DNA of 64,000 nucleotides from Candidatus Minthosoma equi (GTDB taxonomy: Bacteria > Bacteroidota > Bacteroidia > Bacteroidales > Bacteroidaceae). Positions within the stretch are counted from its first letter, which is position 1. The number at the start of each line of letters is the position of its first letter. The stretch is taken from contig JAGHUI010000003.1 of NCBI GenBank assembly GCA_018064885.1, positions 1 through 64,000 on the forward strand. Direction: 5' to 3'. Made by a program: the position numbers and the translations under genes. Shown here piece after piece: positions 31,157 through 64,000 of this stretch. The notes below the pieces were generated by a model that was not told the origin of the DNA, searched no databases, and saw nothing but the letters and a program-made list of their open reading frames with translations.

Positions 31157-32602
31157 ATGACACTAAAAAAATTAACCATCTTAACAATCATTTTTCTCAG
31201 TATTTGCTTCACTTCAAATGCTCAGACTGCCAAGAACAGCCTGCCAGATGGTTATAGCATCATGCCAAATTTTCCATTCGTTATCATTGAAGACAACGGA
31301 ATCAACTATGACCTTCAGGTTTCCGACTCACTTTTCAACAACAATTCAGTAGGAGCACGATTCAGAGTGAACAGAACCGTCATCGACCCAACGTCTGAGT
31401 TCTACACAACCTACAAGAATCAGCTGCTCCCACTCCTCTACGGAAGCAATCTCACCATCAAGAAGCTCTTCATCCGAGGTGCCGCATCTCCTGAAGGTCC
31501 ATACGAGAACAACCGCCGCCTTGGTATCGGTCGTGCAAAAGCGCTCTATGCCATCATCGCTGAAGACCTCCAGAGAGTGCTCGACGGCAAAGAACCGCTC
31601 CGCACAGACTCAAAGACAATCATCGAGGATTACGGCTACCTCATCCACCTCATGCGAGAATCCGACGACCCTGACTATGAGGTTGTCCGCAATATCTTTG
31701 AAGGCTGCAACCGCGACGAGAAAAAGACAAAAGCGCTTCTCATGAAAGAGAGAGGCGGTGCGCTCTGGTACAGACTTCTCCATCAGTACTTCGACCGCCT
31801 TCGCACAGCACGCATCATGCTGGTTGTTCGTGAAAATTCATCAAAAGCAGAAACCAAAACAATAGTTCCTAATCAAATACATGTTGATGTAATTCCAAAT
31901 AAACATCTTGACCCTGTTCAAATTCCTCACGTTGATTTCGGATATGTAAACACAAATCTTGAAGCAGCCCCTGACTCATGCCGACGCCATCTGATTGCTC
32001 TTCGCACCAACCTTCTCCGTGACTTCCTCTATATGCCGCAGTTCGGTTGGGCGCCAGGCATCGACGTTCAGCTAGAGTACTATCCGCTCGACGGACACTA
32101 CACATACAACGCAGGTTTCACATGGACAAACCACCATCATTGGGGCTCACAGGAATTCTTCCAGATCAGAGACCTTCAGCTTGAGCTTCGCCGCTACTTC
32201 CGTGGTCATGGCGACTTTACAGGACTCTATCTCGGAGCATACCTTGAAGGCACAGTCTATGGCATCGGCTTCAGCAAGAAAAAGGGATGGCAAGGCGAAG
32301 GCGTTGGAGCAGGCGTAACATTCGGCTACGTCATGCCGCTCAACAGACGAGGCAACTGGCGACTTGAGTTCATGGCAGCAGCTGGAGGATTCGTCACACG
32401 CTTTGACCCTTATGTTTATGGCAATCCAGTAACGAATGAAGAAGATAAGTTCTATTATTACGATTATCTCGGTTCTGCTTCTTCCTTCAAGAAGCGCAAC
32501 CACCAGTTCACATGGTTCGGTCCTACAAATCTTGGCATTCAGCTCACATACGATATTCTCTATCGTCATCCAAAGCAAGTAAAGAAAGGAGGTGCAAGAT
32601 GA
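31157..32602 (+). CDS. DUF3575 outer-membrane protein with OmpA-like segment
   Basis: 481 residues with a signal peptide cleaved near SNA-Q23. Residues about 65-135 resemble an OmpA-type domain (LFIRGAASPEGPYENNRRLG then IGRAKALYAI). Residues about 270-481 fit DUF3575: LIALRTNLLRDFLYMPQFGW, GWAPGIDVQLEYYPLDG, YLGAYLEGTVYGIGF and aromatic beta strands to the end, as in an outer-membrane barrel. DUF3575 genes commonly start Bacteroidales fimbrillin clusters. Its stop overlaps the next ATG (ATGA), and it opens the locus here. It is a likely assembly or anchoring factor, not a pilin. Confidence 0.85.
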   Translation: MTLKKLTILTIIFLSICFTSNAQTAKNSLPDGYSIMPNFPFVIIEDNGINYDLQVSDSLFNNNSVGARFRVNRTVIDPTSEFYTTYKNQLLPLLYGSNLTIKKLFIRGAASPEGPYENNRRLGIGRAKALYAIIAEDLQRVLDGKEPLRTDSKTIIEDYGYLIHLMRESDDPDYEVVRNIFEGCNRDEKKTKALLMKERGGALWYRLLHQYFDRLRTARIMLVVRENSSKAETKTIVPNQIHVDVIPNKHLDPVQIPHVDFGYVNTNLEAAPDSCRRHLIALRTNLLRDFLYMPQFGWAPGIDVQLEYYPLDGHYTYNAGFTWTNHHHWGSQEFFQIRDLQLELRRYFRGHGDFTGLYLGAYLEGTVYGIGFSKKKGWQGEGVGAGVTFGYVMPLNRRGNWRLEFMAAAGGFVTRFDPYVYGNPVTNEEDKFYYYDYLGSASSFKKRNHQFTWFGPTNLGIQLTYDILYRHPKQVKKGGAR

Positions 32603-33786
32603 AAAAGATATTCTCGACTCTAACCTCAAACCTCTCGACTCTAACCTCAAACCTCTCGACTCTAACCCTCATATTAGTGCTGAATTCATGCATCGAGCCA
32701 CCTCTTCGCCTTCCTGGAGAGACTGTTATGGTAGATGTACCAATCGTTCTCACCGAGATGGAAGTGGTATGGAATGTTGATGTTGATTGGAAAACTCAGT
32801 GGTATTATGGTTGGGACACAATTGACGAGTCACTGTGGGGCAAGATTGAATATCCTAAGCCAACAAGCTACGAAGTTCGCAGATATTATCTTGGAAACAC
32901 TCCTCACAAACCTCACACTGAGGTAGATGCTTTCTCTATCAACGAAACACATTTCCGCCGTTACTATAATTTCGGATACTACGACCTTCTCATCTGGAGC
33001 GACATCGATTCTGAGGAAGGTGTTCAGTCTGTGGTTATCAACGAGGAAAATCTTGATGAGGTCACAGCCACCACATCCGGAACACGAGGCATGAGCAACA
33101 TCGTTACAAGATCGGATGAGGAAGTGACAGCAGGTCTTTACAACCAACCGGAAATCTTCTATTCAACATATCCCCGAGACGTTTATATCTCACGCAATTT
33201 TGATGACTACGATTATTACGATGAAGTCGAAATGGTATGGGTGAAGAAGATTAATGCAACACTTAATCCTCTTGTTTACTACTATCTTGTGCAGATTATC
33301 ATATACAACAACGATGGCAGAATCACGGGAGTGAATGGAAACAATGCCATTTCTGGATTCGCTTCTTCCACAAGCGTTAATACAGGACATACAAGCAACA
33401 GTCCTGGTATGATCTATTTTGAGAGCCGAATGAAACAGGGCATAGATGTCAACGGAAGATCTGCCGACATCATTGGTGGTAAGCTCACTACATTTGGATT
33501 GTGTGGCATGGAACGATGGGAGAAAGGCTCGTCTCCTATATATAATGGTTCCCGCAAGGACCTCAAGAATTCATTGTTCTTCGATTTGACATTCAACAAT
33601 GGAAAAGAGAAAACATTTGAAGTTGATGTCACTGAACAATGCCAGAAACAATGTCATGGTGGAGTCATCACAGTAGTGCTTGACGCCAATGACATCGATA
33701 TACCTTCTTCTGATGATGGACCGGGAAGCCTCTTCGTTCCTACAGTAGAAGACTATGATGAAGTAATTTGGGAAGTAACAATTTAA
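32599..33786 (+). CDS. DUF5119 lipoprotein of the fimbrial locus
   Basis: 395 residues. An upstream extension to 32512 exists, but the ATG at 32599 follows AAAGGAGGTG and overlaps the previous stop. The signal peptide contains a heptad repeat, STLTSNL-STLTSNL-STLTLIL, before lipobox Cys31. The mature region has VPIVLTEMEVVWNVDVDW and a YYLGNTPHKPHTEVD-like strand typical of DUF5119, a family found in Bacteroidales fimbrial clusters. The two-gene start (DUF3575, DUF5119) then leads into the pilins 13 bases on. Likely role is pilus anchoring or assembly; this is inferred. Confidence 0.8.
   Translation: MKKIFSTLTSNLSTLTSNLSTLTLILVLNSCIEPPLRLPGETVMVDVPIVLTEMEVVWNVDVDWKTQWYYGWDTIDESLWGKIEYPKPTSYEVRRYYLGNTPHKPHTEVDAFSINETHFRRYYNFGYYDLLIWSDIDSEEGVQSVVINEENLDEVTATTSGTRGMSNIVTRSDEEVTAGLYNQPEIFYSTYPRDVYISRNFDDYDYYDEVEMVWVKKINATLNPLVYYYLVQIIIYNNDGRITGVNGNNAISGFASSTSVNTGHTSNSPGMIYFESRMKQGIDVNGRSADIIGGKLTTFGLCGMERWEKGSSPIYNGSRKDLKNSLFFDLTFNNGKEKTFEVDVTEQCQKQCHGGVITVVLDANDIDIPSSDDGPGSLFVPTVEDYDEVIWEVTI
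32612..32667 (+). repeat. 21-base tandem repeat inside a signal-peptide coding region
   Basis: Two perfect 21-base units (32612-32632, 32633-32653), each beginning TCTCGACTCTAACC, are followed by a partial third copy. Each unit adds seven residues, so copy changes preserve frame and alter signal-peptide length. Confidence 0.85.
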
Positions 33787-33799
33787 CAATTATACTAGT

Positions 33800-36256
33800 A
33801 TGAAAACAAAAAAACTTTTGTCTTTCGCCGTTGCTGCTATTGCTTTAGCAGGATGTTCCAATGACGTTGATGTTGTCAATGGACCTAACGGACCAAAGAA
33901 CGATGCGATTAATTTCCGGGTAGGACAATCTAACCTGACTCGTGTTCAAGACCTTAACAAAGCCGGTCACTACAACTTTGGTGTGTTCGCATATAAGAAC
34001 ACAGACAAGACTAATGGCATCATGGACAACTATCTTGTAGGATACCATGATGACGCACTGGCTTACTCTGCTTCTGGTACAACAGTTGGAGACACTCCAG
34101 GACAGGAAGACGGAAAGTCACAGTGGATGTACGAGGGACTTGGCTATTCTGAGTTCACAGGCACTTATGCTGGCAAGACTCTCAATGCTGGCACAGTATT
34201 TGCCTCTAATGTGGACAAGCAGTATCTCCGTTTCTGGGATAGCTCTGCCGCAAACACATTCTTCTATGCTTATGCTCCATATGTGAATACAACAGCTACA
34301 GGCAAGACTGTCACTTATGTTGATGGAGAATCAAACACTATGACCTTCCCTGATGGAGCAATCGAGCACGGTTACAACGATCCATCAAAGCATGAATACC
34401 TCTATGCTTCTGCAAAGGTGAATAATGCTGACTATGGTCATGATGTTGCTCTACAGTTCAAGCACCTCAATGCTAAGGTGAACATCAAGTTCTGGGAGAA
34501 CATTCCTGGCTATCGCATCCGTATCATCGATGTGAACAATGATTACAGCGTTTCTGCAGTTCCTGCAATCAAGGACGGAACAAGTGGAAAGTATGGATAT
34601 AAGAAAGGTACAATCTACTCAAAGAGCGGTGCAACTCTCAAATTTGAGAATGGAGCATTGAAGACTATGAGCCAGCTTACAGGTACTACTACAGATGCTC
34701 CACTCAACTTTGCTGCACCTGAAGAAGCTACTATTGGCGAGAATCGTGTAAATGCTTCTGCTTCTGCAACTACTTACTATGCTATTCCAAAGAACAACGA
34801 TACAGGTCTTACATTCCACGTTACATACGAGCTCCTTTCTACAACAGGTGAAAAGATTACTGTAAAGGATGCAACTGTATTCGTTCCAACTGATTACACA
34901 AATTGGGTAGCAAACAAGCACTACACATACATCTTCAAGATTACAAAGAACAGTAACGGTAGCACAGGCAGTGTTTCTCCAGACCCAACAGATCCTGACG
35001 TCCCAACAGTTCAGGCTCTTTATCCTATCGTATTCGATAACTGTACAATCGAGGATTGGGAGGAAATTGATAGCGAGCACAATATCTCTGATGGCACAAA
35101 TGCTGCATACCACGATGTTGAGTTGTCTGCATACTCATTGTCTTCAGGTACAATCGACGTTACTGTAACAGACAATGATACTTATACTGGTCATGGAATC
35201 AATTACAGCAATATCTCAATTACTGGTCCTGATGGCGCTGACATGACTAAGGTAACATATGTTGCTGGTGCAGATAAGGGTACAATCACAGTAGCAGATG
35301 GTGCTGCAGCAGGTACTTATACTGTTTCCTACAGATGTTCTGCAGGTGCTTATGAGAACCACCCTAATGCCGATACTTGGACAGAAACATTCGAGGTTGG
35401 TAGTGTTTACACTGTTGCCCTCAACAAGTATGTTGTTGGCACAGGCGGTCAGGCTGACTCGTACCTTGCTATCACAACAACAAAGGATGGAACTGCAGAA
35501 ACAGCAGCATCTGGAACATTGACGATTGACTATCCTGCTAATGTTTCATCTACTGATAAGGTGAAGGTTGAAGGCGGAAAGGTTGTTATTGCAAAGGACG
35601 CTCCTGAAGACTTCTACAAGCTCATCTACAAGGTTGATGGAAAGAAGGTTGACGAGAAGGTCTTCGAGGTTCGTTCTTACCAGCACAACCTTAGCATGAA
35701 CATTGTTTACCTCAATGGCGAAACACAGACAATTTCATCTTCACACCTCGGAAGTGACGATGCGTTGTCACTTGATGCATCTGCTCCTGCAGGTCTTACA
35801 ATTGATGGTTACACAATCAAGGTTTCAAATGACGTTCCAGCTGGCAGCTACAATGTATATTATACAGTAGATAAGTCAGACAGCAACTCAAAGGTAACTT
35901 ACGTTTCTACATTTGAAGTAAAGGAAACTATTGCAGTGGCTGTTAATAAGTCATCACTTGACAGAAATCAGGGAACTTCAACTTCAGGTCAAATCACAAC
36001 TGATGGTATCACTGTTACAACAACAAGAAATGGTATGCCAACAACAGGTGATCTCACATCAAGCATTTCAATCGTCAAGTCAGATAAGACAGCAGCTTGG
36101 GATGGCGACTTCACAATCTCTTACGACAGCTCTGCAAATATGTACACAGTTCGTTGTAAGAACACAGTTGCTACAGGCAACTACTACGTGAAGTTCACTC
36201 AGACTCTCTCTGATGGCGAGAAGTCAGAGTACGCAATCTTCACAGTTCAGGAATAA
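33800..36256 (+). CDS. Fimbrillin family lipoprotein with Ig-like C-terminal repeats
   Basis: 818 residues, lipobox Cys19, Arg48 in LTRVQ. The fimbrillin region (20-420) has the FKHLNAKVNI motif at about 219 and ends with the DNCTIEDWEEID strand near 405. Residues 425-818 form about four Ig-like repeats, each beginning with a strand such as VELSAYSLSSG, TVALNKYVVGTG or TIAVAVNKSSLD and ending in a strand such as TYTVSYRC or YNVYYTV. The tail region suggests a stalk or spacer. It is the first pilin after the assembly genes and is followed by a strong hairpin, so it may be made in excess. Confidence 0.8.
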   Translation: MKTKKLLSFAVAAIALAGCSNDVDVVNGPNGPKNDAINFRVGQSNLTRVQDLNKAGHYNFGVFAYKNTDKTNGIMDNYLVGYHDDALAYSASGTTVGDTPGQEDGKSQWMYEGLGYSEFTGTYAGKTLNAGTVFASNVDKQYLRFWDSSAANTFFYAYAPYVNTTATGKTVTYVDGESNTMTFPDGAIEHGYNDPSKHEYLYASAKVNNADYGHDVALQFKHLNAKVNIKFWENIPGYRIRIIDVNNDYSVSAVPAIKDGTSGKYGYKKGTIYSKSGATLKFENGALKTMSQLTGTTTDAPLNFAAPEEATIGENRVNASASATTYYAIPKNNDTGLTFHVTYELLSTTGEKITVKDATVFVPTDYTNWVANKHYTYIFKITKNSNGSTGSVSPDPTDPDVPTVQALYPIVFDNCTIEDWEEIDSEHNISDGTNAAYHDVELSAYSLSSGTIDVTVTDNDTYTGHGINYSNISITGPDGADMTKVTYVAGADKGTITVADGAAAGTYTVSYRCSAGAYENHPNADTWTETFEVGSVYTVALNKYVVGTGGQADSYLAITTTKDGTAETAASGTLTIDYPANVSSTDKVKVEGGKVVIAKDAPEDFYKLIYKVDGKKVDEKVFEVRSYQHNLSMNIVYLNGETQTISSSHLGSDDALSLDASAPAGLTIDGYTIKVSNDVPAGSYNVYYTVDKSDSNSKVTYVSTFEVKETIAVAVNKSSLDRNQGTSTSGQITTDGITVTTTRNGMPTTGDLTSSISIVKSDKTAAWDGDFTISYDSSANMYTVRCKNTVATGNYYVKFTQTLSDGEKSEYAIFTVQE

Positions 36257-36275
36257 TCTGTCACAGATAATTTCA

Positions 36276-36306: not shown

Positions 36307-36330
36307 ACTATATATAATATATGTACGCGC

Positions 36331-36376: not shown

Positions 36377-37597
36377 TTGACTAAATACATATACATATTA
36401 TCTTCTTTTATGCTTGCACTTCTGTCAGCATGTTCCTCAACCGAAGAATTGGAAAAGGTTGAGAACGAAGCTGCCAGCAATGACCCATTGGTTTTCACCT
36501 GCATAGCTCAGGATGCGGAGCAGGCTCAGGGTACACGTGCGGTATCATCTCCGCTTACTTCCGACTTCATGGTTTCAACCTACAAGGCGTTTGCTAAAGA
36601 TGAGCAGCAAACTGTTATGAGCAAATATCGTGTAGAATACAAGACCTCAGGAAGTGCATGGGATGGAACTGTGCGTCCTTACTGGGATTATACCACAGTG
36701 TCTGGTCAATATGAGAAGTATTGGGATTATAGCAATTACCCATATCGCTTCAATGCTATTGCACCATGTCCAGGCAACACTACAAAAGCCGTTCTTAACG
36801 ATAAGCAGCTCACAATCAATGTTCCATACAAGATGCAGTCATGCCTGAACGGACAGATCATTCCTGCCGATGCAGAAGCAGAGCCATACTTAGTGGCACA
36901 GGTTCAGCGCAATACAAACGGCAAGGATTACGACCTCATGACTACTACTGGAAAAAAAGAGATAAACATTAATACTGCTACACTCAACCGTTCAGTGGCA
37001 TTGCCATTCCATCACCTGAACTCAAAAGTTAGATTTGGTGTCTATACAACATCCCATTGGGCTACAGCAAACGACCTTTTCATCAAGGATCTTATAATAA
37101 ATGTATCTTCCGATCGTTTTGCCACAAACGCTGTAGGCTATAATGCTACAAGCACCGATGGTGATTACACATGGTATCGTGGCACAAACAATTCAGGATT
37201 CACAGGAGTAAGTCAAGCATCAGCCATTGGCACCCGTCTTCTGCAGTTCGATGGAGGCAAAGACATTGAAGATAACAATCTTAGTAAGCATCAGGGACGC
37301 TCGTCAGCATATTGGTTACTTTGTCAGAATGGAATAATGCAAATTCCACAGGAACAGGTCCAAATGACAGTTAGCTTCAAGCTATACAAGATGGATGGAA
37401 CATTATACAAAGCATTCAGCAACGTTCCGGTAAAACTGGATGACGACACACAGGTCTTCGACTGGAAATCAGGCAATATCTACACATACTACTTGATAGT
37501 CACAGGTATAGATGATAAACTTGAAATAAACTTTACCGCCACCCTCACCCCTTGGGATGATGTTAGCGGAATCCTAAACACAGACCTTGAGAAATAA
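36377..37597 (+). CDS. Fimbrillin family lipoprotein
   Basis: 406 residues, read from a TTG start at 36377 (MTKYIYILSSFMLALLSAC, Cys19). The next ATG (36407) would leave only seven residues before the Cys, too short for a signal peptide. Arg54 in QGTRAV follows the lipobox by 35 residues. FHHLNSKVRF at about 211 and the final strand INFTATLTPWDDV mark the Mfa-like fold. It is a single-domain, typical-size pilin. It follows two hairpins in a 120-base gap, so its level may differ from the first pilin. Confidence 0.78.
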   Translation: MTKYIYILSSFMLALLSACSSTEELEKVENEAASNDPLVFTCIAQDAEQAQGTRAVSSPLTSDFMVSTYKAFAKDEQQTVMSKYRVEYKTSGSAWDGTVRPYWDYTTVSGQYEKYWDYSNYPYRFNAIAPCPGNTTKAVLNDKQLTINVPYKMQSCLNGQIIPADAEAEPYLVAQVQRNTNGKDYDLMTTTGKKEININTATLNRSVALPFHHLNSKVRFGVYTTSHWATANDLFIKDLIINVSSDRFATNAVGYNATSTDGDYTWYRGTNNSGFTGVSQASAIGTRLLQFDGGKDIEDNNLSKHQGRSSAYWLLCQNGIMQIPQEQVQMTVSFKLYKMDGTLYKAFSNVPVKLDDDTQVFDWKSGNIYTYYLIVTGIDDKLEINFTATLTPWDDVSGILNTDLEK

Positions 37598-40558: not shown

Positions 40559-42895
40559 ATGAAATTGAAACAACTACATACAATACTTTCCTTCTCGTTA
40601 TGTGCCCTTATCACGGCATGTAGCGAGCAGGATATATTGGTAGATACGCCACAAAACGACAAAACTCCAATAGAACTGAGTGTGGGTGGCGTAGAAAGCA
40701 TGGAACCAAGTACTCGTGCTGTCATCACCGATGAAATCTCAGGTAGGATGAAGGCTTTCAAGGAGAACACCAGCTTGTATATGCTGATGCAGAGTGACTA
40801 TGTGGGGACTCCTGCTGATGCTAATAAGACTCCGAAGGTTACCAGAACCATCATGTTTGCATTACCACAAACGGATAATACAAAAACAGAATCCGACGTC
40901 AATTACTCTGCATCCAACGAGTATGGTAAGTTTGTTCGTTTCTGGGATGATACTTATGCTCGAGATGCAGCTATATCTATAGTAGCGGCATGTACTCCGG
41001 GCATGGGTGCTGGTGTAGATCAAAAAGCATGGAGAACAGGTGGAGATGCAGCGTATGCTAATCAACTATGGACAGACAAAGTGGGAGGTGCATCTTATCC
41101 ATCCATAGCATGGCCAATAGGAGAGACAAAGGTTACGGATCAGTCGGTTTATACTAAGGATAAGAAAAATCAAGATGTTTCTTACATCAAGAACCAAGAC
41201 CTCTGTTTCTCAAACAATCTGAATGATTACTCCAGCGAAGCAAAAGGGAATAAAGGTGATCGTCGCTTGAAGTTCAATACCGAAACAAAGAAGTTCGACA
41301 AGGGACACCTGATATTCTATCATGCCCTCTCAAAACTCACATTCCGTTTTGTTATGGGAGAAGGTTTTACTGATGATGAATTTAAATTCAAAGATAGCGA
41401 GAATGCATTGTTGAAAAACTTCTATAGCTCTGGCACTTTTAACCTTGAAGATGGTGAGTTTGTTTTCTCAACCTTGAAGAAGGCTAATGGAGTGAGTGGT
41501 CAGAATCCAGTAATCGAAAAGATTTATCAGCGTACTAATGCAGAGCTTACCGATGCAGAGAAATCAGCATACAAGTACATTCTCGATGCACTCGTTATTC
41601 CAGGCACAGACCTCACATCTTCAGACGATGCTGTGTTCTTTACTATCAATAACAATGACTATAAGGTTACTATGTCGCAGTTGTATAAGGCTATTCTTGA
41701 GGTAAAGGATGCTGATGGCAACTATATCTATAGCACAGATGGAACATCTGTCAAAACCGATTACTTAACAGAATACAAAAAACTGAAAGCAGGTGTTCAC
41801 TATGTCTTTACCTTTAATGTAGCCAAGTCAAAGATCAGCGGAATTACTGCATCCGTTGTGGATTGGGAAACAGTCACATCCGACAATATCATCCCTTCAA
41901 ATGCTCGTATCTCTTTGAAGCTTGAAGAGCGTGGAACTGAGGTAAAATCAGATGCAGCTTTCTATCGTGCATTAGACCCAGGCAATACAACTATTTCAGA
42001 TACCTATGAAGGTTATAAATGGACTACCGGTTATAGCAAATCAACAGGAGCATCATATAATAGTGGTGATAAAAAATGGACAACAACCGACTGGTTATGG
42101 CCGGACAATACAACCTTCTACCATTTCCGTGCGTTGGCTCCAACAACGCAGACAGTCACAACAGCTACTAATGACTACACGTCTCTTACAGCTGGACAGA
42201 CGTACATCGATGTTCGCTGGGGTGCTCCAATATTGGATGATGCAGTTGATGAAGTTGCAGGTTCATTCAAATTGTACTACAACACTACTAACGGTTTTGA
42301 TGCTACTGGTGACGGCTCTCCAAATTCCTCTCACCAGATTTACAAAGCTATAGGTCCTACAAACGATCCTATAAAACTCATTATGTTCCACATGATGAGC
42401 GATGTGACAATTAATGTTGAGAGTGTGACGGGTGATGCTGCTGTACAGTTAAAGGATGGTGAAAATCTTACCAAACTACGTTTTGAGAAGATTTACCAAT
42501 CAGGTAAGGTAGCAATGGGTAATGGTCTTGTATCAACTGATGGAGATATCACTAATACGACATCAGACCTTTACCAAGATGCAAATAGCACTGACGACAA
42601 GAAAATATGGAAATATGGTGCTATTCCTCAGTCGCTTGAAAACGTCGTCCTTGTCATAACAACACCAGACAAGAATGAGTATCGCATCGCCATGAAGGAT
42701 GTGGTATGCACTGCACCAAATTACAGCAATGTCTCATATCCGGCATACACCGACAATAAGGTTAACTATTGGTATCCTGGCGTGCAATACACCTACAACT
42801 TCAAGCTCTCAAAGAAGAAGATAGAAAGTATCACTGCCACCATCCTTGGCTGGGAGTCCATAACAGCAGGCGACGACAACGTGCAGATAAAATAA
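40559..42895 (+). CDS. Tandem double fimbrillin lipoprotein (copy 2)
   Basis: 778 residues, Cys21 lipobox, Arg53 in PSTRAV. The first half has RFWDDTYARDAAISIVA, FYHALSKLTF at about 252 and a terminal strand ASVVDWETV near 430. The second half has FYHFRALAPTT near 519, RWGAPILDDAVD, HMMSDVTINV near 610 and ATILGWESI near 759. Both halves match the corresponding halves of the copy at 37643. It is expected on the outer membrane or in the pilus. Confidence 0.8.
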   Translation: MKLKQLHTILSFSLCALITACSEQDILVDTPQNDKTPIELSVGGVESMEPSTRAVITDEISGRMKAFKENTSLYMLMQSDYVGTPADANKTPKVTRTIMFALPQTDNTKTESDVNYSASNEYGKFVRFWDDTYARDAAISIVAACTPGMGAGVDQKAWRTGGDAAYANQLWTDKVGGASYPSIAWPIGETKVTDQSVYTKDKKNQDVSYIKNQDLCFSNNLNDYSSEAKGNKGDRRLKFNTETKKFDKGHLIFYHALSKLTFRFVMGEGFTDDEFKFKDSENALLKNFYSSGTFNLEDGEFVFSTLKKANGVSGQNPVIEKIYQRTNAELTDAEKSAYKYILDALVIPGTDLTSSDDAVFFTINNNDYKVTMSQLYKAILEVKDADGNYIYSTDGTSVKTDYLTEYKKLKAGVHYVFTFNVAKSKISGITASVVDWETVTSDNIIPSNARISLKLEERGTEVKSDAAFYRALDPGNTTISDTYEGYKWTTGYSKSTGASYNSGDKKWTTTDWLWPDNTTFYHFRALAPTTQTVTTATNDYTSLTAGQTYIDVRWGAPILDDAVDEVAGSFKLYYNTTNGFDATGDGSPNSSHQIYKAIGPTNDPIKLIMFHMMSDVTINVESVTGDAAVQLKDGENLTKLRFEKIYQSGKVAMGNGLVSTDGDITNTTSDLYQDANSTDDKKIWKYGAIPQSLENVVLVITTPDKNEYRIAMKDVVCTAPNYSNVSYPAYTDNKVNYWYPGVQYTYNFKLSKKKIESITATILGWESITAGDDNVQIK

Positions 42896-54631: not shown

Positions 54632-57600
54632 ATGATAGTTAAACATTATATATATAGATGCATGTTATCATTGGCGGCAGCGCTGGTGCTGACAGGATGC
54701 TCTGAATCACTTGGCTCTATCTTCGGTGAAGGTGGGATAGAAAAGGGCGATCCTGTCATGTTCACCACTATGGTGCCAGAGATAGAACCAAGCACCCGCT
54801 CTGCCAAAGAAGAATGGGAGAAAAAGGTCAAGGCATATAAGGCTGTACAACTTGACTATACCTTCAATGTGGAGATGTGGAAGAAGGGTGACGGACAGGC
54901 AACGGCATCTAACAAATACAGCCCTAAGAAGTCAACAAATGAAGGCTCAGAGCCTATAGCAAACTATGACGGCACACTCCAGGCAAAGGACAATATGGAG
55001 ATGTACTGGCAGGATAACGTCAACAGATGGGGTTTCAAGGCTACGTCAGAGAGTTCTCAGACAGTTGAAGCTGAGCAAAACAGCCAAAGCAACTGGTTGC
55101 GTCAGGACAAACTTATCGGCTACTCATATATGCCTTTGTGGATAGAGAATGAGGATAGGGCGGCAGATGACTTCAATGCCATCAACTATCGCACCAATAA
55201 GGAATGGTATGCTGATAATAAGAAAGCCAAGGATCTTGAAGGTTTGATGGTGGAAAGCGACGATGACTATAAGAAGATTCCTCTCTACATGCAGCATGAG
55301 CGCTCTTGGATTACCATCATTCTGAGAGCTGGTGAAGGTGTGGCACGTGAGGCACTCGCTTATGCTACGTCTGATGATAATATCAAGACGTCCATCAACA
55401 GCTTTGCTTCTGATGGTGCTGAGCCTTTTGTCATTGACAAACCATGGTCGAGAGAGACATTCATTGATTATGTGCAGGACAAAAACGGTGCGGCTAAGAA
55501 TAATGTCAGCACTACTCGCTACGATGCTATCGTCATGCCACACAACTATGCTGCCAAGAAAGAAGAGGAGATAATAGCAAAGATAAACCTCTCCAACCAG
55601 ATATTCTCGTTCTATGCAAGCAACGACAGCCGCTACTTCTCTGGAGACCAGGCACAGATAGATGCTGCCGACAAGGCTTATAACCTTGAAGCTGGCAAGC
55701 ACCTCACCATTGAGGCGACATTGTCGCGTGAGAGCCGTAAGATACTTATCACGGCATGGATACAAGATTGGACAGAGGTGGCTACACAGACCATCTGCGA
55801 TGACTACGGACAGAATGGCGACCCGATAGTTATCAAGGATCGTGACGAACTCATCGCTTTCCTTAGGGGCAGTGACAATAAGTCGGGTAGTGTGGCTATT
55901 ATTCAGCCAACAGAGCTCAACCTTGATATTCAGGGAAGTGATTGGCCACAAGATCTTAATCTCAATGCCACGCTCAACCTTGCCGGTTGTGTCTTGAATA
56001 CAGGACATCGCTTGTTCAAGGATATGTCATCGGCTGCCAATCTTGTGAATGGAACTATCAATATTCCTGACAATGCTACATTGGACTGTGCTGTAGCAGA
56101 AAAGAACGAAGGAACGATAGAGCGTGTCAAGGTCACCACCAGTGGCGAGTTGACAACAGCCAAAGCTACTGTAGCAGGCCTTGTTAAGGAGAATCATGGC
56201 ACTATCTATCAGTGCTCATCCACATTGCCTGTATATGGAACAGATGGATATTCAAACGGAGTGGATGGTGATAGCAAAAAGTATATTGGTGGCATTGCGG
56301 CTGTTTCAACCTCCAAGGATGCGGCATCACTGGCTGTGATTGATGCTTGTTCGGTCAATGCATCGGTCAATGGTACGGACGTTTATGGAGGAGGTGTCGT
56401 AGGTTATGTAACAGGACGTGTCTCTAACAATACATACGAATACGGCATCACTGTCAACCAAACTGTTAATCAATTCAAGAATATCTTTGCACAGGCAGGT
56501 ACAGCGGAAGTTCGTGCCACAGGCAATGCATGGCCAACAACTGCACTGAACTATATCCATGAAGACGATAAAACAACGAATCCTAACGGGTACACCGGCA
56601 AGAAGTATGATGCAGTGCTGGATTGTCAGGCAGAGCTTCATGCGTTAATGATGGGTGGCCAATATAATAAGTTAGGGAAAGTATATCGTATCTCGAAGAG
56701 TTTTACTGTAAGCAGCTCTGCTAATGAAGAAGACGACTGGTCACACGGAACTATAGCAGCAGATAACACATCTTATGACAACCTGAACAATGTATCGTTC
56801 ACACTTGAAGGCAACAGTAAGACCATTACCTTGACGGGTGACAAGACAGTAAAGACGACAAATGGCTCTAACCTTTCTGACGGCGAAGCTACAAATTACA
56901 CCACAGCGCCAATGCTGTTTAATTATGTCTTAGGAGAGGTGAAGAACCTGAATCTCTATCTTGAAAAACCTTTGGTGGCAAGTCCGACAGAGGCAACAGA
57001 TTCTAAAACAGGTGAGAAAACCTACAATGCCGAAGATGCCATAGCTCCCCTTGCATACGGCGTCTATGGACCTGAAGCAAAGCTGACGAACGTGAAAGTT
57101 ACGGGTAAGACGGATGCTGCTACACCTGCTGACAATGCATACGTTCAGGCTTCTACCCCTGCCGGTTTGGTGGTATGGGCGTATGGTGGTGCAACAATAA
57201 CCAGCTGCACAGTAGGCGTGCCTGTACGTATGTGGCTTCCAAGTGATATGGGAACTGATGCTAAGCATTATGCCGGTGGTGTCGTTGCCTGTGCTGCCAA
57301 AGCAAATATCCTTCAGACTTCTTACACTGGCAGTGATGAGAATTCTGTGTCAGGATCAGATTATTCTACAACAGCAAAGAATTCTGGCAACTATTTCTAT
57401 GGTGGTATCGTAGGCGGTACATCCACCAAGAATGGTGATACACCAGAATTGGTTATCAAGGACTGCTCAAGTTGGTTTGTTGCCAAGCGTGCAACAGCTG
57501 AAAGTACAGATAGGTCGTCAAAGGGTGGCATCATCGGTTATTGCTGTTATGCTGACAGCGACAGCGGCAGTACTATCAAGAATGGTATGAAGGAAGGCAA

Positions 57601-57712
57601 CGAAGGTAACTGGTGGCAGCTGAGTGCTGTAGGTGCTCATACATGGCTTTCAGGCCTCAATGAAGAAAAAGTTATCGGTAAACGCAACAGTATAACACCT
57701 TCAGCCCCATAA
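54632..57712 (+). CDS. Fimbrillin-like lipoprotein with beta-helix/GLUG-like C-terminal region
   Basis: 1026 residues, Cys23 lipobox, Arg56 in PSTRSA. Residues 24-385 are fimbrillin-like and end with LITAWIQDWTEVATQ. Residues about 395-1026 are repeat-rich: LNLAGCVLNTG, NEGTIERVKVTTSGE, then a GLUG-type motif GGVVGYVTGRVSNNTYEYG and related Gly-Gly-Ile/Val units (YGGIVGGTS, KGGIIGYCCYADS). GLUG units are known from adhesins. It is the longest lipoprotein here and a strong candidate for a pilus-tip adhesin. Confidence 0.78.
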   Translation: MIVKHYIYRCMLSLAAALVLTGCSESLGSIFGEGGIEKGDPVMFTTMVPEIEPSTRSAKEEWEKKVKAYKAVQLDYTFNVEMWKKGDGQATASNKYSPKKSTNEGSEPIANYDGTLQAKDNMEMYWQDNVNRWGFKATSESSQTVEAEQNSQSNWLRQDKLIGYSYMPLWIENEDRAADDFNAINYRTNKEWYADNKKAKDLEGLMVESDDDYKKIPLYMQHERSWITIILRAGEGVAREALAYATSDDNIKTSINSFASDGAEPFVIDKPWSRETFIDYVQDKNGAAKNNVSTTRYDAIVMPHNYAAKKEEEIIAKINLSNQIFSFYASNDSRYFSGDQAQIDAADKAYNLEAGKHLTIEATLSRESRKILITAWIQDWTEVATQTICDDYGQNGDPIVIKDRDELIAFLRGSDNKSGSVAIIQPTELNLDIQGSDWPQDLNLNATLNLAGCVLNTGHRLFKDMSSAANLVNGTINIPDNATLDCAVAEKNEGTIERVKVTTSGELTTAKATVAGLVKENHGTIYQCSSTLPVYGTDGYSNGVDGDSKKYIGGIAAVSTSKDAASLAVIDACSVNASVNGTDVYGGGVVGYVTGRVSNNTYEYGITVNQTVNQFKNIFAQAGTAEVRATGNAWPTTALNYIHEDDKTTNPNGYTGKKYDAVLDCQAELHALMMGGQYNKLGKVYRISKSFTVSSSANEEDDWSHGTIAADNTSYDNLNNVSFTLEGNSKTITLTGDKTVKTTNGSNLSDGEATNYTTAPMLFNYVLGEVKNLNLYLEKPLVASPTEATDSKTGEKTYNAEDAIAPLAYGVYGPEAKLTNVKVTGKTDAATPADNAYVQASTPAGLVVWAYGGATITSCTVGVPVRMWLPSDMGTDAKHYAGGVVACAAKANILQTSYTGSDENSVSGSDYSTTAKNSGNYFYGGIVGGTSTKNGDTPELVIKDCSSWFVAKRATAESTDRSSKGGIIGYCCYADSDSGSTIKNGMKEGNEGNWWQLSAVGAHTWLSGLNEEKVIGKRNSITPSAP

Positions 57713-57748: not shown

Positions 57749-60103
57749 ATGATGAAGTATAAGACAATATATTATATAATGTGTGTCATTGCAGCGCAGT
57801 TCTTCGTGTGCTCCTGCTCTGATGATACCCTCACGCCTGGAGCAGAAGCCGGTGCTGGGGATGTGATCAATGTAGGTGCAGACGTTGATGGATTGACGGT
57901 GTCGTCATCAATGACACGTGCTACGGGAGAATCAAAAGATGCAGAGAAAGTTTCATGGCTTGTACAGCCTCTCCTGAAAGGCTTGGATATTACATACGGA
58001 AATATTAAGAATAACAATAGGAACAATGAGCGTGTTGCAATCTTGAAATTGGTACCAAATGATGATAAATCTGAAGGAGCGGATCCATATAAGACAAATA
58101 CCAACAGCGGTTTTGCTGAATATACCTTCAAATATCGTTCAGAAACCGATGGTAGCGAAACTACGGAAAAGGCGCGTTGGTATGACAACGGTCTTCACTT
58201 CTTTGAGGGCGTGCATGTGCCAAACCGAATCAGATACGCAATCGACGCCACAGAGATAGAAAATGATAATAGAACAGTCACAGGAGATAATGGTAACCTA
58301 GTGCCTGTGGGCAAGGTTACGAATCTTACTACCGACCAGAGCGGAGATGTATCTGAAGGTACTGACGACCAGCTTTCCAATTATTATCTGTTGTCTCACT
58401 ATCTCGGTATGCCGGCAAATACGCAGATTTCAGCTACTGTAGCGCGTATCAAGTTGCCTTTCCGTCACCGTCTGGCACGTGTGTTGGCTTATATCCTTAT
58501 TGATCCATCACTTATGAATGGTGCAAATCCTACAAAGATTAAGGGATATGCCAATATTGCAGAAGAGGGAAAACCTTTTCGTGATAACCCTGCCACCAGC
58601 GAGATACGTTTCTGTAATGTGGATGTTCTTGCGGGTGTTCACGATGTGTATAACCAGGCGACAAAACTTCACACCCTCACTCCTAAATGGGAAGAGAAGG
58701 TGCGTAAGGTCATTCCGCATTTCAACACGCAGTTAGCAAGTTTCAAGACATATCAGTCAGACAAAAAGACTTATTACGAGGGCACTTCTGACTTCCCGTC
58801 ATCACTACCTGCAGGCTTTACTCCTGTTACTTACACAAATGTGCCTGTCTATGACCTTATCGTGCGTCCAACTTACACCGACAAGGATAATGTGATGTAT
58901 GATGAGGATTTGTATGATGAGGATTTGAAAGACTACGAAACACCTGAACAGTACGCCGCAAAGACTAACAAGATTGACTTCATCGTGTCGCTTGATAATG
59001 GCTTGACATACGAGAAGGAGTTCGTCTTTGACCTTGATGCCAACTACCAAACCATTGTCTATCTAAAGATTACCCATGAAGGTGTGGATTATAATGAGTC
59101 AGGTTCGGCACAATGGGTGGAGGAAACCCGTAATGACAATTGGTATGGTGTTGATAACCAGAATGGCAACACACTCTCTAAGGCTGGTAGCAGTTGGCAG
59201 AGAGCTTATTATAATGACGACCTCCATGATACAGACAAGGTTACCGATGGCGGATTCTATGATGAAGATACCCCAGGTGAGGATGGCACAAAGGGACAGT
59301 ATGTCAATGAGGCTACATGGAAGGAGTACTTCCTGCAGGCATACAAGGGCGGTGCTCATCATGGCGATTATTTCGTGTTGTCAAATGATATTACCATAGA
59401 CGCCAATGAGTTGCCTAATAACTTTGTGTTTACGGGACACCTCGATGGATTTACAACTCATCAAAGTCGTAAGTACTGCAAAATCACCCTTACAGGAGGA
59501 AACTCTTGGGCAGAGTATGATAAGGATGAACTCCGCAACCTGAAAGTGAAGACTGGAAATGAAGGTAGTGATGCTGACTACACCGATGTTCCTCAGTTAT
59601 ATTGGACAGTAGAGGAGGCGCATGCCCGTCCACGAAAGGCAGAATACATCCCTGGAGGTGATCCAAAAGTGACAGAGATACCTATGATCGAATATCCTTC
59701 TTATCTCTCGCAGCTTGATAGCGAAGGCAAGGTGATACTGTATAAGGATGGCGATAATAAGTATAAACTCTATACTAACCGCACCTTCTACAGAAAGACC
59801 GCCGGTTCGCTCTTTGACGGCCTTGACGGTATTTATACCACTAATCAGGAGAGAGGAGAGACACCGTGGGAAGCTAATGTGCATAAGGAAACCAACAACG
59901 GCAAGACTTATTGGCTACCATACAAGGATACAGAAGGCGATGGCGCTACAAACACAGGTTGGCGTGCAGAGGTGATGAACCTTGAAGTGTCTGGTGGTTC
60001 CCTTTTCAAAGACAATGCTGTCATCACGGGTTACGTATATAATTGTAAAGATGATAATGGCAGAGTAGATGATCAACCCCCTGCTATGCCTAAATACAAG
60101 TAA
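57749..60103 (+). CDS. Fimbrillin-like lipoprotein with extended C-terminal region
   Basis: 784 residues, lipobox Cys23 (CSCS), Arg57 in SMTRAT. FRHRLARVLAYI near 237 is the fimbrillin core motif. EKEFVFDLDANYQTIVYLKI near 430 ends the pilin part. The C-terminal region (about 470-784) has FVFTGHLDGFTTHQSRKYC and AGSLFDGLDGIYTTN, a degenerate form of the beta-helix motif in the next gene. EEAHARPRKAEY near 630 is an Arg-rich segment also found in copy 4. The gene ends five bases before the next start. Confidence 0.72.
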   Translation: MMKYKTIYYIMCVIAAQFFVCSCSDDTLTPGAEAGAGDVINVGADVDGLTVSSSMTRATGESKDAEKVSWLVQPLLKGLDITYGNIKNNNRNNERVAILKLVPNDDKSEGADPYKTNTNSGFAEYTFKYRSETDGSETTEKARWYDNGLHFFEGVHVPNRIRYAIDATEIENDNRTVTGDNGNLVPVGKVTNLTTDQSGDVSEGTDDQLSNYYLLSHYLGMPANTQISATVARIKLPFRHRLARVLAYILIDPSLMNGANPTKIKGYANIAEEGKPFRDNPATSEIRFCNVDVLAGVHDVYNQATKLHTLTPKWEEKVRKVIPHFNTQLASFKTYQSDKKTYYEGTSDFPSSLPAGFTPVTYTNVPVYDLIVRPTYTDKDNVMYDEDLYDEDLKDYETPEQYAAKTNKIDFIVSLDNGLTYEKEFVFDLDANYQTIVYLKITHEGVDYNESGSAQWVEETRNDNWYGVDNQNGNTLSKAGSSWQRAYYNDDLHDTDKVTDGGFYDEDTPGEDGTKGQYVNEATWKEYFLQAYKGGAHHGDYFVLSNDITIDANELPNNFVFTGHLDGFTTHQSRKYCKITLTGGNSWAEYDKDELRNLKVKTGNEGSDADYTDVPQLYWTVEEAHARPRKAEYIPGGDPKVTEIPMIEYPSYLSQLDSEGKVILYKDGDNKYKLYTNRTFYRKTAGSLFDGLDGIYTTNQERGETPWEANVHKETNNGKTYWLPYKDTEGDGATNTGWRAEVMNLEVSGGSLFKDNAVITGYVYNCKDDNGRVDDQPPAMPKYK

Positions 60104-60107
60104 AGAC

Positions 60108-62843
60108 ATGAAGAAATTCATTTATATAATAGGTGTATTGCTGACAGGACTTTTCGTTGCATGTTCGGAGGAGGATGTGTTGGGTGGTAACACCCTTACC
60201 GCCGAGCAGGAAGCGCTGATAGGTCGTGCCGTAAACTTCAACGCCTCATACGCTGATGCGTTCACCACCCGAGTATCTAACTACACCAATATTATTGACG
60301 GTTCGTTCAATCAGAACGACCGTATGCGCATCTACCGTAACTATTACGAAGGCACTGCATGGTCGAATAATGAGGCTTACCGTACCTATGCTTATGTTTA
60401 TAAGTCGGATGCCACGACAGGCATCGACCTTGGTCATGACTGGCAGGTTGAAGTCGGTCGTACAGGATATGACGATAAGGGTGAAGGCTATAAGACATTC
60501 CCGCAGTCGAAAGCAGACTCTCTGACATGGGAGAACGGTAAGACTATCCGTTTCCGTGCCTGGAGCCAGAGCAATTACCACAACATCTTGTACGGTACTA
60601 CCAATACCTATTTCTATCCGGACTTCTGCGCTTCAGATTATGTGAATGCATCAGGTCCTAGCACCAGTATCCCTATGGTGCTGAGACATCTTGGTACGCG
60701 AATCATGTTCAAGGCGTTACCGGATGGACCCGGTGGAGGCAACGAGTTTCATGACATCCGTCTGTGTAGCAACATCAATCCTGATGGAACAGAGAATCCT
60801 GACGGTTGGAAGGATTATAAGTATGCCGACAATGCCGACACAAACGAAAATGATGGTTCTTCATCGGAAGAGAGTAAAGAAGATGACCAAGCCAAACAAG
60901 AGTGTGATGCTGTAACTGCAGTATTCAAGCGCATGTGTATGCCGGCAGGTGTGGATATTACCACAGGCACGCTGAAGGCGGTGAAGAATGAGTGGTGGAA
61001 GAATGCAAGTTCTGATCAGGTGAGAACACTTGAAGATCAAGCCCCAAGCAATTTCTATAGTTTTAATACAACGTCAGCCGAAGACCTTGCAAAATATGCT
61101 AAGCGTCCATTCTTCTGTACCATCAACTACAACCCGATGATGGTCACCATTCCATACGACATGAGTAATGATGCAACCACATCTGGAGAGGTGCTTACGC
61201 TACCTGCATGTACTCGTTTCCGTATTTACATGCGCGACGTGAATAATGGTGATGAGTATAATAAAACTGGTTATGAGGGCAAGTATCACATCTTCGCCTT
61301 GTCGGATATTATGAAGACAGAGAATGGTCAGGACGTTCCGGCCTTCCCTGATGGCTTGAAGTTGGGTTCGGGTCTAAGTTATACCTTCAGGGTGGGTTAT
61401 CGCTATGGTGGTCTTTATGTTACGGTGGATAATAACATTTCATGGGTGGAACAGGATCTCGGAGAACAGGAAGCTGCTAATGCAGTAGTCACGCCTACTC
61501 CAAGCTCTGAGCCATATAAGTGGTGGCAGGATGCTATCAGATATGCTATTCCTCAGGGCACTAATGACTTCCAACCTGTGTTCCATATTGAGAACGAAAC
61601 ACAGTTTCTTGAGTTCATCAAGCTTGTAAACGGTACTACTGGCGCAAAGACAGGAAATCTCTACCTTTTAGATTCAGGTGAGAAGGATTCATATGGCAAC
61701 CCAATAAAGAAATGGTCAACCGTAAATAGTGTATATAAGCCAAACTGGGTGACAGAGGAAGATATGGCGGCACAGGGATACTTGTTCTATGATCACTATC
61801 ATGCAGCCAATGCCGATAGGGCTGCCTACTCCGAGCGAGATTATCTCAAAGGTCCCTATCCGTTCTATGATGATAACCTGAGCAGAAACTTTACGGTCAA
61901 GTTGGACGAAGACCTTGACCTTCAGGATTGGATGCTGGAGAGTATCGGTGCCAGCGAGGACACACCTTTCCGTGGTTGCTTTGATGGTCAAGGACACACC
62001 ATCAAGAACGTGTATATGAAGGACGAGAACATCTTCGGGTATGTCAACGGTATCGGTACAGAACATGCTGCCATCACCAACCTGAAGATAGAGAGTTTGC
62101 ACAACACCTGCCTGATAGGTACTGGCGTAAATCAGATATACGTGGCTGGTATTGCCCTCTATGCTCCAAGCTCTACAAACAGCATTGCGCATAGCATGAG
62201 CATGGACTCAAATACTTCTGGTACAAGCTATGTTGTTGGCTGCATACATGTGGGTGATGCCCGTGGGGCTCTTGTGGGTACTGCCAGCAACCTGAATATG
62301 TTTGGGTGTATGCAGGCAGCGCAGGGTATCACAGGTGGCGCTTTGATTGGCACAGATGCTAATACCACTCCTGTCTTTACTCCTCAGATTAGTTTGAATG
62401 GACAGAAGGCAGGATCAAAGATAAATGCAAAACCGCAGTTCAAGAACTTTATCGGCAACTTCTATGATACGCAGCTGTCACCAAGTGCTAAGGCTGTTGG
62501 TTCAACTTCCGACGACTACTCGCTCCTTGAGTATATCCGTGGAAGGAATACGGACATCCTTTGTGCTAAGAACGACTACCTGACTTCAGAAGTGTCTATG
62601 AAGCAATTGCTGACACTGAGTTACACACAATATTACGGTCTGGCTCCATGGAAGGTTATGAACTATGCCATTTACTGGTACAACAAGAACAGAGTGAATG
62701 CGCAGGTTAACCATCCTTGCACCATACACTACGAGAACAACACCACAGGTTACGTACACCGTTATCCTGTGCCGATGACAGGAAAACCTGAAGATAAATA
62801 TTCAACCGTAAGCTCCTGGAACCCTGTTGAACAAACAAACTAA
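60108..62843 (+). CDS. Fimbrillin-like lipoprotein with beta-helix adhesin domain
   Basis: 911 residues from ATG at 60108 (MKKFIYIIGVLLTGLFVAC, Cys19); the longer upstream frame (60069) would run through the previous gene and spoil the signal peptide. Arg55 lies in FTTRVSN. LRHLGTRIMFKAL near 191 and VTVDNNISWVEQDL near 437 mark the pilin part. The C-terminal half has FTVKLDEDLDLQDWMLESIG, then FRGCFDGQGHTIKNVYM near 621, the classical start of a GLUG/pectin-lyase-like beta-helix, with later units ITNLKIESLHNTCLIG and GGALIGTDANTTP. Likely tip adhesin. It is translationally tight with its neighbours. Confidence 0.82.
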   Translation: MKKFIYIIGVLLTGLFVACSEEDVLGGNTLTAEQEALIGRAVNFNASYADAFTTRVSNYTNIIDGSFNQNDRMRIYRNYYEGTAWSNNEAYRTYAYVYKSDATTGIDLGHDWQVEVGRTGYDDKGEGYKTFPQSKADSLTWENGKTIRFRAWSQSNYHNILYGTTNTYFYPDFCASDYVNASGPSTSIPMVLRHLGTRIMFKALPDGPGGGNEFHDIRLCSNINPDGTENPDGWKDYKYADNADTNENDGSSSEESKEDDQAKQECDAVTAVFKRMCMPAGVDITTGTLKAVKNEWWKNASSDQVRTLEDQAPSNFYSFNTTSAEDLAKYAKRPFFCTINYNPMMVTIPYDMSNDATTSGEVLTLPACTRFRIYMRDVNNGDEYNKTGYEGKYHIFALSDIMKTENGQDVPAFPDGLKLGSGLSYTFRVGYRYGGLYVTVDNNISWVEQDLGEQEAANAVVTPTPSSEPYKWWQDAIRYAIPQGTNDFQPVFHIENETQFLEFIKLVNGTTGAKTGNLYLLDSGEKDSYGNPIKKWSTVNSVYKPNWVTEEDMAAQGYLFYDHYHAANADRAAYSERDYLKGPYPFYDDNLSRNFTVKLDEDLDLQDWMLESIGASEDTPFRGCFDGQGHTIKNVYMKDENIFGYVNGIGTEHAAITNLKIESLHNTCLIGTGVNQIYVAGIALYAPSSTNSIAHSMSMDSNTSGTSYVVGCIHVGDARGALVGTASNLNMFGCMQAAQGITGGALIGTDANTTPVFTPQISLNGQKAGSKINAKPQFKNFIGNFYDTQLSPSAKAVGSTSDDYSLLEYIRGRNTDILCAKNDYLTSEVSMKQLLTLSYTQYYGLAPWKVMNYAIYWYNKNRVNAQVNHPCTIHYENNTTGYVHRYPVPMTGKPEDKYSTVSSWNPVEQTN

Positions 62844-64000
62844 ATGATGATGACAAGAGTAAATTATTTATATAAAGAGTTTTTGGGCTTGCTGCTGTTT
62901 GCTGTCCTGATTTTCTCTTCTTGTACAAAAGAGGAGAAGACTCCTGCTGTTTATGACGACGGTCCTGTAAAGATTACGATGGATGTGACTCCGTTTGAAG
63001 GGGAAGTGTCAACACGCACAAATGTAGAAGGTACAGGGTTTGAAGGTGGAGACAAGATTCGCTTTAAGATTATCTGCCCTAACTCTTCATCCCATGAATT
63101 GGGCGAGACATGGGGTAGTTATTATACTATTACTGCACCAGCAAATTTAAATAACGGAGCTTATTTCATCACAGGTACTCATGGTTCCTACGAAGCTCAG
63201 GCAACCACTTATATCTACACTGCGATGAATACCACGGACAATAGAATATACGTGGTGGGAGATTATCGATATTCCTTCCCTAGCAGCTTCTTCTTTGCCG
63301 ACCAGAGTAAGTTGTCGCAGTTTAAGAGCAGCGATGTGGTGTGGGCACAGGCGGTGCGACAGACAGGTGCCCGTGAGGTGCATCTCAACTTCAAGCATAA
63401 GGTTGCGAAGCTGGATATCACCATCGTTGATGATAAAGGCGAACTGTTGGAAGAAGGACAACTGTCCAACAATCTCATCCTCACCCTAGAAGGCATGCCG
63501 GATATAGATGGCGCAGAGATTGTCGTGGGCGACTATTATGCCGACCAGAGTATAGACAGTGACTACTCGTTCAAATACATGCATAAGGCATCTTGCAGTT
63601 ACGAGAACAATGGCAAGGTGATAGGCATTGAGGTGCTTGACGATACAAACAAGAGGACAAGGGTTTATGCTTTGACGGGTAATCCATATCCTGCCGGAGG
63701 CGACTATAATAGCTATAATTATGCAAAAGTTCCTAATACGGGTACATACCGCGCTTATCAGGATACTTCGAATAAATTGCACTTTACGCTCTATGTGCCG
63801 CCATGCAACCTTGATCCTGATGGTGTTGATGCAAACAACGAAGGCACCAACCATGCTGTCATGTGGCTTCGCGATGGCACCAAGCGCTATAAGATGGTGC
63901 TCAACCAGAAGGTGTTCGAGGAGGGAGTCTGCTATAAGCTGAAGATGGTAGTGAGCAAGAATCCTGCTCCTCCTGCAGATCCAGATCCAGACCCCAATCC
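62844..64000 (+). CDS. Fimbrillin-like lipoprotein, cut by the window end
   Basis: At least 385 residues, starting at ATG 62844, immediately after the previous stop; the frame is open to the end of the window. The signal peptide is MMMTRVNYLYKEFLGLLLFA then VLIFSSC, Cys27. Arg58 in VSTRTN follows. FKHKVAKLDITIVD near 181 is the core fimbrillin motif, and YKLKMVVSKN near 375 may be its last strand before a Pro/Asp-rich linker (PADPDPDPNP). The linker suggests a further domain, probably another adhesin, beyond the window. Confidence 0.8.
   Translation, partial: MMMTRVNYLYKEFLGLLLFAVLIFSSCTKEEKTPAVYDDGPVKITMDVTPFEGEVSTRTNVEGTGFEGGDKIRFKIICPNSSSHELGETWGSYYTITAPANLNNGAYFITGTHGSYEAQATTYIYTAMNTTDNRIYVVGDYRYSFPSSFFFADQSKLSQFKSSDVVWAQAVRQTGAREVHLNFKHKVAKLDITIVDDKGELLEEGQLSNNLILTLEGMPDIDGAEIVVGDYYADQSIDSDYSFKYMHKASCSYENNGKVIGIEVLDDTNKRTRVYALTGNPYPAGGDYNSYNYAKVPNTGTYRAYQDTSNKLHFTLYVPPCNLDPDGVDANNEGTNHAVMWLRDGTKRYKMVLNQKVFEEGVCYKLKMVVSKNPAPPADPDPDPN

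Follow-up and report, generated by a model that had tools for sequence, protein, structure and literature searches.

Type V pili are made of tip, stalk and anchor pilins that are cut by a surface clostripain, according to the available portion of a review (PMC12632263). Their genes are found in Bacteroides and Prevotella, as the excerpted part of a review citing a 2020 review has it (PMC8551831). In the Mfa1 fimbriae of Porphyromonas gingivalis, the accessible part of PMC5954841 reports that Mfa1 requires Arg gingipains, that Mfa3 may be an adaptor and that Mfa5 is exported via the type IX secretion system (T9SS). Here we describe a 35.6 kb fimbrial locus in Candidatus Minthosoma equi that extends from 31157 to 66803 of contig C64 (JAGHUI010000003.1) in that organism's genome (G000), with every gene on the plus strand. 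The stretch analysed, hereafter the window, comprises positions 1-64000 of this contig, which extends to 85609; the last 2.8 kb of the locus lie outside the window and were read from the fetched right flank. The locus encodes a DUF3575 protein, a DUF5119 lipoprotein, twelve pilin-type lipoproteins (p1-p12), a 1595-residue repeat protein and a 116-residue protein. It is a real, conserved and uncommonly large type V pilus locus, and we put the probability that it encodes one elaborate type V pilus (lipoprotein, protease-triggered, donor-strand) at about 0.7. A first-pass annotation of the window had already proposed a single elaborate type V pilus locus. That proposal is now supported by a fixed-order gene set at differing flanks, the pilin fold of p8 and p9, a lipobox and a basic residue in all twelve pilins, and a C11 protease. 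The annotation had also called the locus undescribed, and in the open-licence literature we found no published account of such a locus.

The distribution of the system was traced with profiles of p8 and DUF3575. Of 399 family genomes, 15 match the p8 profile, in six of 30 genera, and 51 match the DUF3575 profile. In a sample of 393 genomes of the order p8 was recovered from the window's own genome only; no carrier outside the window's family was found. Among 45 genomes of the genus, DUF3575 relatives are present in 20 at E<=0.001, with values below 1e-75 only in G000, G001, G013, G024 and G025. In G025 the set is complete and in order; p1 is present twice, the 116-residue gene is absent and the flanks are different. 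A scan of named genomes with short patterns, the loci being fetched through p8, yielded 31 named loci, a lower bound; several of these are the same contigs as genomes of the family sample, two derive from a single isolate, and the window's own genome may be missing. The synteny comparison suggested by the first-pass annotation shows orthologs in the same order throughout these 31 fetched loci: none of the 273 family genes lies on the minus strand, and of 242 neighbouring pairs 237 follow the p1-to-p12 order, five join genes of the same family and none is reversed. The five same-family pairs comprise two doubled genes (p4 in L098 and p3 in L100) and three split ones. The split genes are p9 in L082, p3 in L084 and p8 in L092, each divided into two frames, which may reflect gene damage or errors of assembly. 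Neighbouring genes are separated by a median of 6.5 bases, and 230 of the 242 gaps do not exceed 100. p4 is missing in 14 of the 31 loci, where p3 leads straight to p5. In 24 loci the family genes finish with p12, and each of these has p8-p12 complete. Loci read whole hold 11-13 pilin genes by eye: 12 in the window's locus, G279, G130 and G263, 11 in G396, G209, G384 and G307, and 13 in G025. The relatives of p8 are 36-59% identical to the window's p8. Because the set is conserved in fixed order, it is hard to reconcile with unrelated, separately used genes, the outcome that the first-pass annotation had set against a pilus locus. Chance tandem duplication is ruled out since the orthologs recur in order. 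An apparent division into two co-evolving blocks (p5-p6 versus p7-p12) vanished when the 12 loci with all ten compared families were used.

The surroundings of the set vary. With simple open reading frame calls and up to three called genes per right side, 17-18 unrelated groups can be told apart among the right flanks of 21 named loci, none resembling the window's, while the left flanks of the 11 loci with called genes form eight groups, none sharing the window's. Common flanks link L082 with L097 and L087 with L095 and L096 (L088 weakly); on the left, G279, G056 and G401 have one gene in common and G384 and G307 two, this last pair matching on that side alone. Since the flanks differ between groups of genomes, the conserved unit occupies many genomic sites. 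The record titles of the 31 loci name horse faeces in three cases, horse-derived species names in three, sheep in one and the acronym RUG, which we take to denote rumen, in eight. Other carriers named are Prevotella communis, P. ruminicola KHT3, Xylanibacter brevis, X. ruminicola and Prevotella sp. MA2016; no host is stated in the remaining titles.

Our gene calls match those of the first-pass annotation, which had listed DUF3575, DUF5119, eleven fimbrillin-type lipoproteins and a repeat protein in the window, all on the plus strand. Its size range of 406-1026 residues holds for the ten lipoproteins complete in the window, whereas the eleventh, p11, is cut by the window end and really has 403 residues; p12 is a twelfth. 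All twelve possess a lipobox (in p6 the aligned Cys is residue 19, the first pattern match being at residue 10) and an [ST]R dipeptide about 30 residues past it. The two-domain pilin fold is recognised in p8 and p9 by structure models and in p1, p3-p7 and p11 by PF13149 matches over the cut-off. The first pilin, p1 (33800..36256, 818 residues; PF13149, E 4.5e-10), has a C-terminal stalk that is lacking in many relatives of 354-474 residues. p2 (36377..37597, 406 residues) is a single pilin with no Pfam match; it shows 24.6% identity to p6 over 207 residues (E 4e-4) and an hhalign probability of 99.3% to p1. It is followed by four double pilins, p3 (37643..40351, 902 residues; two stretches of PF13149), p4 (40559..42895, 778 residues; three stretches), p5 (43410..45656, 748 residues; E 1.1e-25) and p6 (50520..52736, 738 residues; E 1.1e-37), which are full-length paralogs of one another, p4 being absent in many relatives; the p6 family profile matches PDB 4k4k, 3ufi and 3t2l. 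p7 (52779..54581, 600 residues; E 1.7e-10) is again a single pilin.

The remaining pilins are more divergent. p8 (54632..57712, 1026 residues) combines, in its model, a pilin domain at about 24-383 with a beta-helical part at 397-1026, and p9 (57749..60103) a pilin domain at about 36-453 with a poorly modelled C-terminal part. By sequence, both rank among the subunits most remote from known pilins: neither has a useful Pfam match, and the p8 profile found nothing useful among PDB sequences. Both models match solved Bacteroidales pilins. p10 (60108..62843, 911 residues, the start probably at 60108) is a pilin-type lipoprotein with a large C-terminal part, aligned by hhalign to p11 at 94.5% over 176 columns and to p12 at 96.9% over 152. 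Mfa_like_1 was found in just two of 25 p10 relatives at E<=0.01, and a profile search of the structure database with p10 gave chance matches only. p11 (62844..64055, the window part running to 64000; PF13149, E 7.5e-9) is a pilin without the usual last strand and tail, and p12 (64095-66803, 902 residues, outside the window) is a pilin-type lipoprotein with a PF13149 match below the cut-off (E 0.017). Fimbrillin_C (PF15495), presumably the family label of the Mfa1 shaft pilin, is carried by no gene of this locus: it matched no scanned locus protein, and in the window's own genome it occurs only on contig C97. A third fimbrial locus on that contig (L005) has FimA/Mfa1-type Fimbrillin_C pilins followed by a protein of at least 1877 residues.

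A common processing signal is apparent when the column aligned to the window's Arg is followed through the pilin families. Of 251 members examined, seven with an unclear start were set aside; among the 244 usable ones, 234 have a basic residue at this column (222 Arg and 12 Lys). Six of the ten non-basic members are p9 proteins, most with TK or TR a few residues off. The preceding residue is Thr or Ser in 213 of the 234, and the following one is Ala, Thr, Ser or Gly in 227. By comparison, 27 of 941 other alignment columns reach 85% basic residues. In the locus pilins the aligned Arg falls at positions 47-58, and in the p8 model it sits in a low-confidence loop (52-57) after the strand 43-49. 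This aligned-column count replaced a plain cut-site regular expression that undercounts owing to start-codon errors and KR or TK sites. The expression also matched 17 of 37 control lipoproteins, many of these 17 being pilins of other loci by sequence or place, so that the control is not clean.

One lineage departs from Arg as a whole. In L075 (Horse_feces50, genome G797) all twelve locus pilins have TK, with Lys for Arg: p4-p12 by alignment (eight at the column and p7 three residues off) and p1-p3 by eye. The sole Mfa_like_1 protein found outside the locus in G797 (L075, L140, L141) also has TK, whereas three outside pilins of P. communis carry TR; the p8 of L073 has TK too. Because TK is common to all G797 pilins inside and outside the locus, this pattern argues for a single protease that would read all the pilins of a cell. 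In L074 and L078, several pilins show KR for TR, again locus-wide. The window's own genome has one C11 (clostripain) peptidase (134 bits), with a lipoprotein start and His and Cys motifs recognised by eye, and a C11 peptidase is present in eight of nine other genomes tested. The segment after its catalytic Cys reads SQTEVL in G797 as against SPAEIP in four other genomes and the window's genome; we would guess that this segment reflects a changed C11 specificity. A C25 peptidase, perhaps the T9SS sortase, is present in five of seven genomes and was not found in G797 and G798, although draft genomes can miss genes.

The locus opens with two genes that seem to form its base. The first (31157..32602) encodes a DUF3575-domain protein (PF12099, E 4.5e-14), predicted to reside in the outer membrane, whose orthologs head the locus wherever the left end was read; a profile search with it gave no useful match. 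The second (32599..33786), with a probable start at 32599 and hence a 4-base overlap, encodes a DUF5119 lipoprotein with a lipobox. Its PF17145 score of 25.3 bits is just below the cut-off of 27, and seven of nine relatives match that family at E<=0.01. The [ST]R cut site is absent in all 21 of its family members with a recognised lipobox (25 examined). Because it is a lipoprotein without a cut site, we guess that it is the anchor; no FimB/Mfa2-type anchor was detected in Pfam at E<=0.1 among the locus proteins, and the DUF5119 profile matches nothing in the PDB. A second kind of locus, found on contig C50 of the window's own genome, on C1 and C18 of G025 and in G220, G364 and others, has the same DUF3575-DUF5119-p1-like start and a p2-like pilin. 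It differs in what takes the place of p3-p12: a small lipoprotein and a very large secreted protein, usually of about 4000 residues but of 6296 on C50, along with between one and five p1-like genes. Since the same start heads these loci too, the DUF3575/DUF5119 pair is a general base, and p3-p12 set the window's kind apart. On C50 (L020, L021) we also noted by eye two pairs of PIN-type toxin-antitoxin-like small genes between the pilin genes.

The C-termini offer hints as to how the subunits might be arranged. p2-p6 end in short tails past the last Trp strand, which differ between families and are conserved within each: measured in 14-residue windows, tail conservation stands at the 86th percentile for p2, 73rd for p3, 96th for p4, 84th for p5 and 94th for p6. 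The corresponding figures are 57 for p7, 71 for p8, 47 for p9, 51 for p12, 8 for p10 and 0 for p1 and p11. p8 ends in the modelled beta-helix, the ends of p9, p10 and p12 do not resemble pilin tails, and the last strand and tail are absent in 25 of 25 aligned p11 proteins. The subunits likely co-assemble into one fibre. They would reach the outer-membrane surface as lipoproteins, where a C11-type protease would cut after Arg (Lys in one lineage), freeing the subunit and opening a groove to be filled by the C-terminal tail of the next one. DUF5119 would serve as the membrane anchor with DUF3575 as its outer-membrane partner; the stem would consist of p1-p6, among them the four double pilins with their family-specific tails; and p7 would link it to p8, p9, p10 and p12, whose non-pilin C-termini would hold the putative binding domains. 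Stopping short of the last strand and tail, p11 would be able to receive a donor but not to provide one, which would place it at an end of the fibre. We infer the order anchor, stem p1-p6, linker p7 and end pieces p8-p12 because the tails differ in this manner. In herbivore guts, such a fibre would probably attach the cell to glycans of plants or mucus, or to other cells. More tentatively, and as a conjecture to which we give clearly less credence than to the pilus itself, each of the twelve subunits might accept only its proper neighbour through the family-specific donor tail, so that a single hetero-oligomeric fibre of defined order and with several adhesins at its end would result; the common protease would in one lineage have shifted from Arg to Lys, and all the pilins of the genome with it.

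The same C-termini could be read differently: the operon might produce several alternative pili with a common base and stem, on which p8, p9, p10, p11 and p12 are interchangeable tips of different fibres. The non-pilin ends of four of these and the tail-less p11 do make five acceptor-only-looking tips; however, interchangeable tips should be lost or swapped singly, and none of the five is missing from any of the 24 loci that reach p12, which renders this arrangement unlikely. Less probable still is a coat of separate pilin-fold surface lipoproteins that never polymerise, the basic residue being a release or maturation mark. Large adhesin tails and four double-domain subunits would indeed be unusual for polymer units, but the tails of p2-p6 and a basic site at one alignment position throughout the twelve families are what strand exchange needs. 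Antigenic variation, in which a reservoir of tandemly duplicated pilins would be expressed one or a few at a time, is very improbable: p3-p6 are full-length paralogs and p1 (G025), p4 (L098) and p3 (L100) occur doubled, yet fixed-order orthologs despite 36-59% p8 identity point to old, distinct roles, and no invertible promoter appears among the inverted repeats of 20 bases or longer found between 30900 and 64000, shorter repeats not having been sought.

Several observations weigh against a single, ordered pilus, our preferred reading. One unbranched fibre does not easily accommodate five subunits that lack a pilin-type donor at the C-terminus, and p8, which lacks a pilin tail, scores nearly as high in relative tail conservation (71st percentile) as p3 (73rd). 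Single subunits can be missing, p4 often, with skips from p2 to p4, p5 to p7, DUF5119 to p2 and p3 to p6 seen once each in the 31 loci. The flanks shared by some neighbouring groups imply that part of the conservation is plain descent, and the distance correlation is weak for p2 and p3 (0.32-0.52). Only profile comparison assigns p2, p10 and p12 to the pilins, and DUF5119 has no sequence link to solved structures in a PDB profile search or to the p6 profile. As for transcription, a lone Bacteroidales-type -7 motif at 31110 precedes DUF3575 only and is by our own estimate at about chance level, and the gaps of 120-207 bases between p1 and p2, p3 and p4, and p4 and the 116-residue gene leave room for internal promoters.

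Intergenic distances in the window's locus otherwise range from -4 to 67 bases, the fourth wide gap (also within 120-207 bases) being that before DUF3575. The promoter pattern that we took as the Bacteroidales consensus has three matches in the window against 1.64 expected, none of them in the locus. An E. coli-type scan of 30500-46000 returned 47 promoters against 34.4 expected and six terminators against 10.3, and was not used. A phase-variable promoter was rejected on the search for inverted repeats of 20 bases or longer between 30900 and 64000, shorter ones not having been sought: there are just three (73-83% matches), of which two have arms over 15 kb from each other and the third is a palindrome located in p6.

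Two further genes interrupt the pilin series. The giant beta-helix protein of the first-pass annotation is present as the 1595-residue repetitive secreted protein between p5 and p6 (45724..50511), although it has no Pfam or NCBIfam match and its probable beta-helix is a reading of the repeats. Its C-terminus, which we take to resemble a T9SS sorting tail, has no match to a sorting-domain model in Pfam or NCBIfam; the T9SS translocon SprA is present in the genome (2613 bits). The protein is an accessory: among the loci read it was seen in the window, in G025/L077 (same genus, between p5 and p6) and, in shorter form, in L076 (before p6) only. The 116-residue zinc-ribbon/four-helix-suffix protein between p4 and p5 (43040..43390; TIGR04258, E 6.5e-8, below the cut-off) is an insertion outside the conserved set. 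The GC content of its gene is 0.541 versus 0.436 for the locus, it has no BLAST relative among the other loci of the window's kind that were read, and a PADLOC search gave nothing useful. G130 has an unrelated 113-residue frame in the same gap.

The first-pass annotation had correctly foreseen that the locus runs beyond the window end: on the right flank p12 closes it at 66803 and is followed on the minus strand by HtrA-like and asnA-like genes, named by eye. Its left neighbour is a YgiQ-type radical SAM gene (PF08497), and farther upstream, at 24775-28832, lie a T9SS plug-domain protein and a Golvesin_C/amidase-like protein.

With about twelve pilins in a conserved set, as against the three described roles of tip, stalk and anchor, the locus makes subunit order without a chaperone or usher testable, along with the number of adhesins that one pilus can carry. 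The carriers are rumen and horse-gut relatives of Prevotella, including named strains, and are hence open to study; the locus may explain how they hold feed particles or each other. The Arg-to-Lys change provides a natural experiment on which protease drives assembly.

Set beside solved structures, the locus draws on a fold already seen in gut Bacteroides pilins that were solved singly (4k4k, 3ufi, 3t2l, 4h40), whose two-domain architecture is common to p8 and p9. The FimA fimbriae of P. gingivalis (fimA-E) follow the same export and protease logic, as far as the available portion of PMC11316588 describes it, and differ in having five genes, with fim loci averaging 7.3 kb in that source against 35.6 kb here. 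The Mfa1 fimbriae (mfa1-5) likewise comprise lipoprotein pilins cut after Arg (Arg49 in Mfa1; the aligned Arg of the present pilins lies at 47-58) and a cluster of shaft, anchor, adaptor and tip genes with a T9SS-secreted partner, Mfa5, according to the accessible part of PMC5954841. They have five genes in contrast to the fourteen here. In place of a detectable Mfa2, the present locus has the DUF3575 and DUF5119 base genes, and it also has four double pilins, as well as pilins whose large tails are beta-helical or of another kind.

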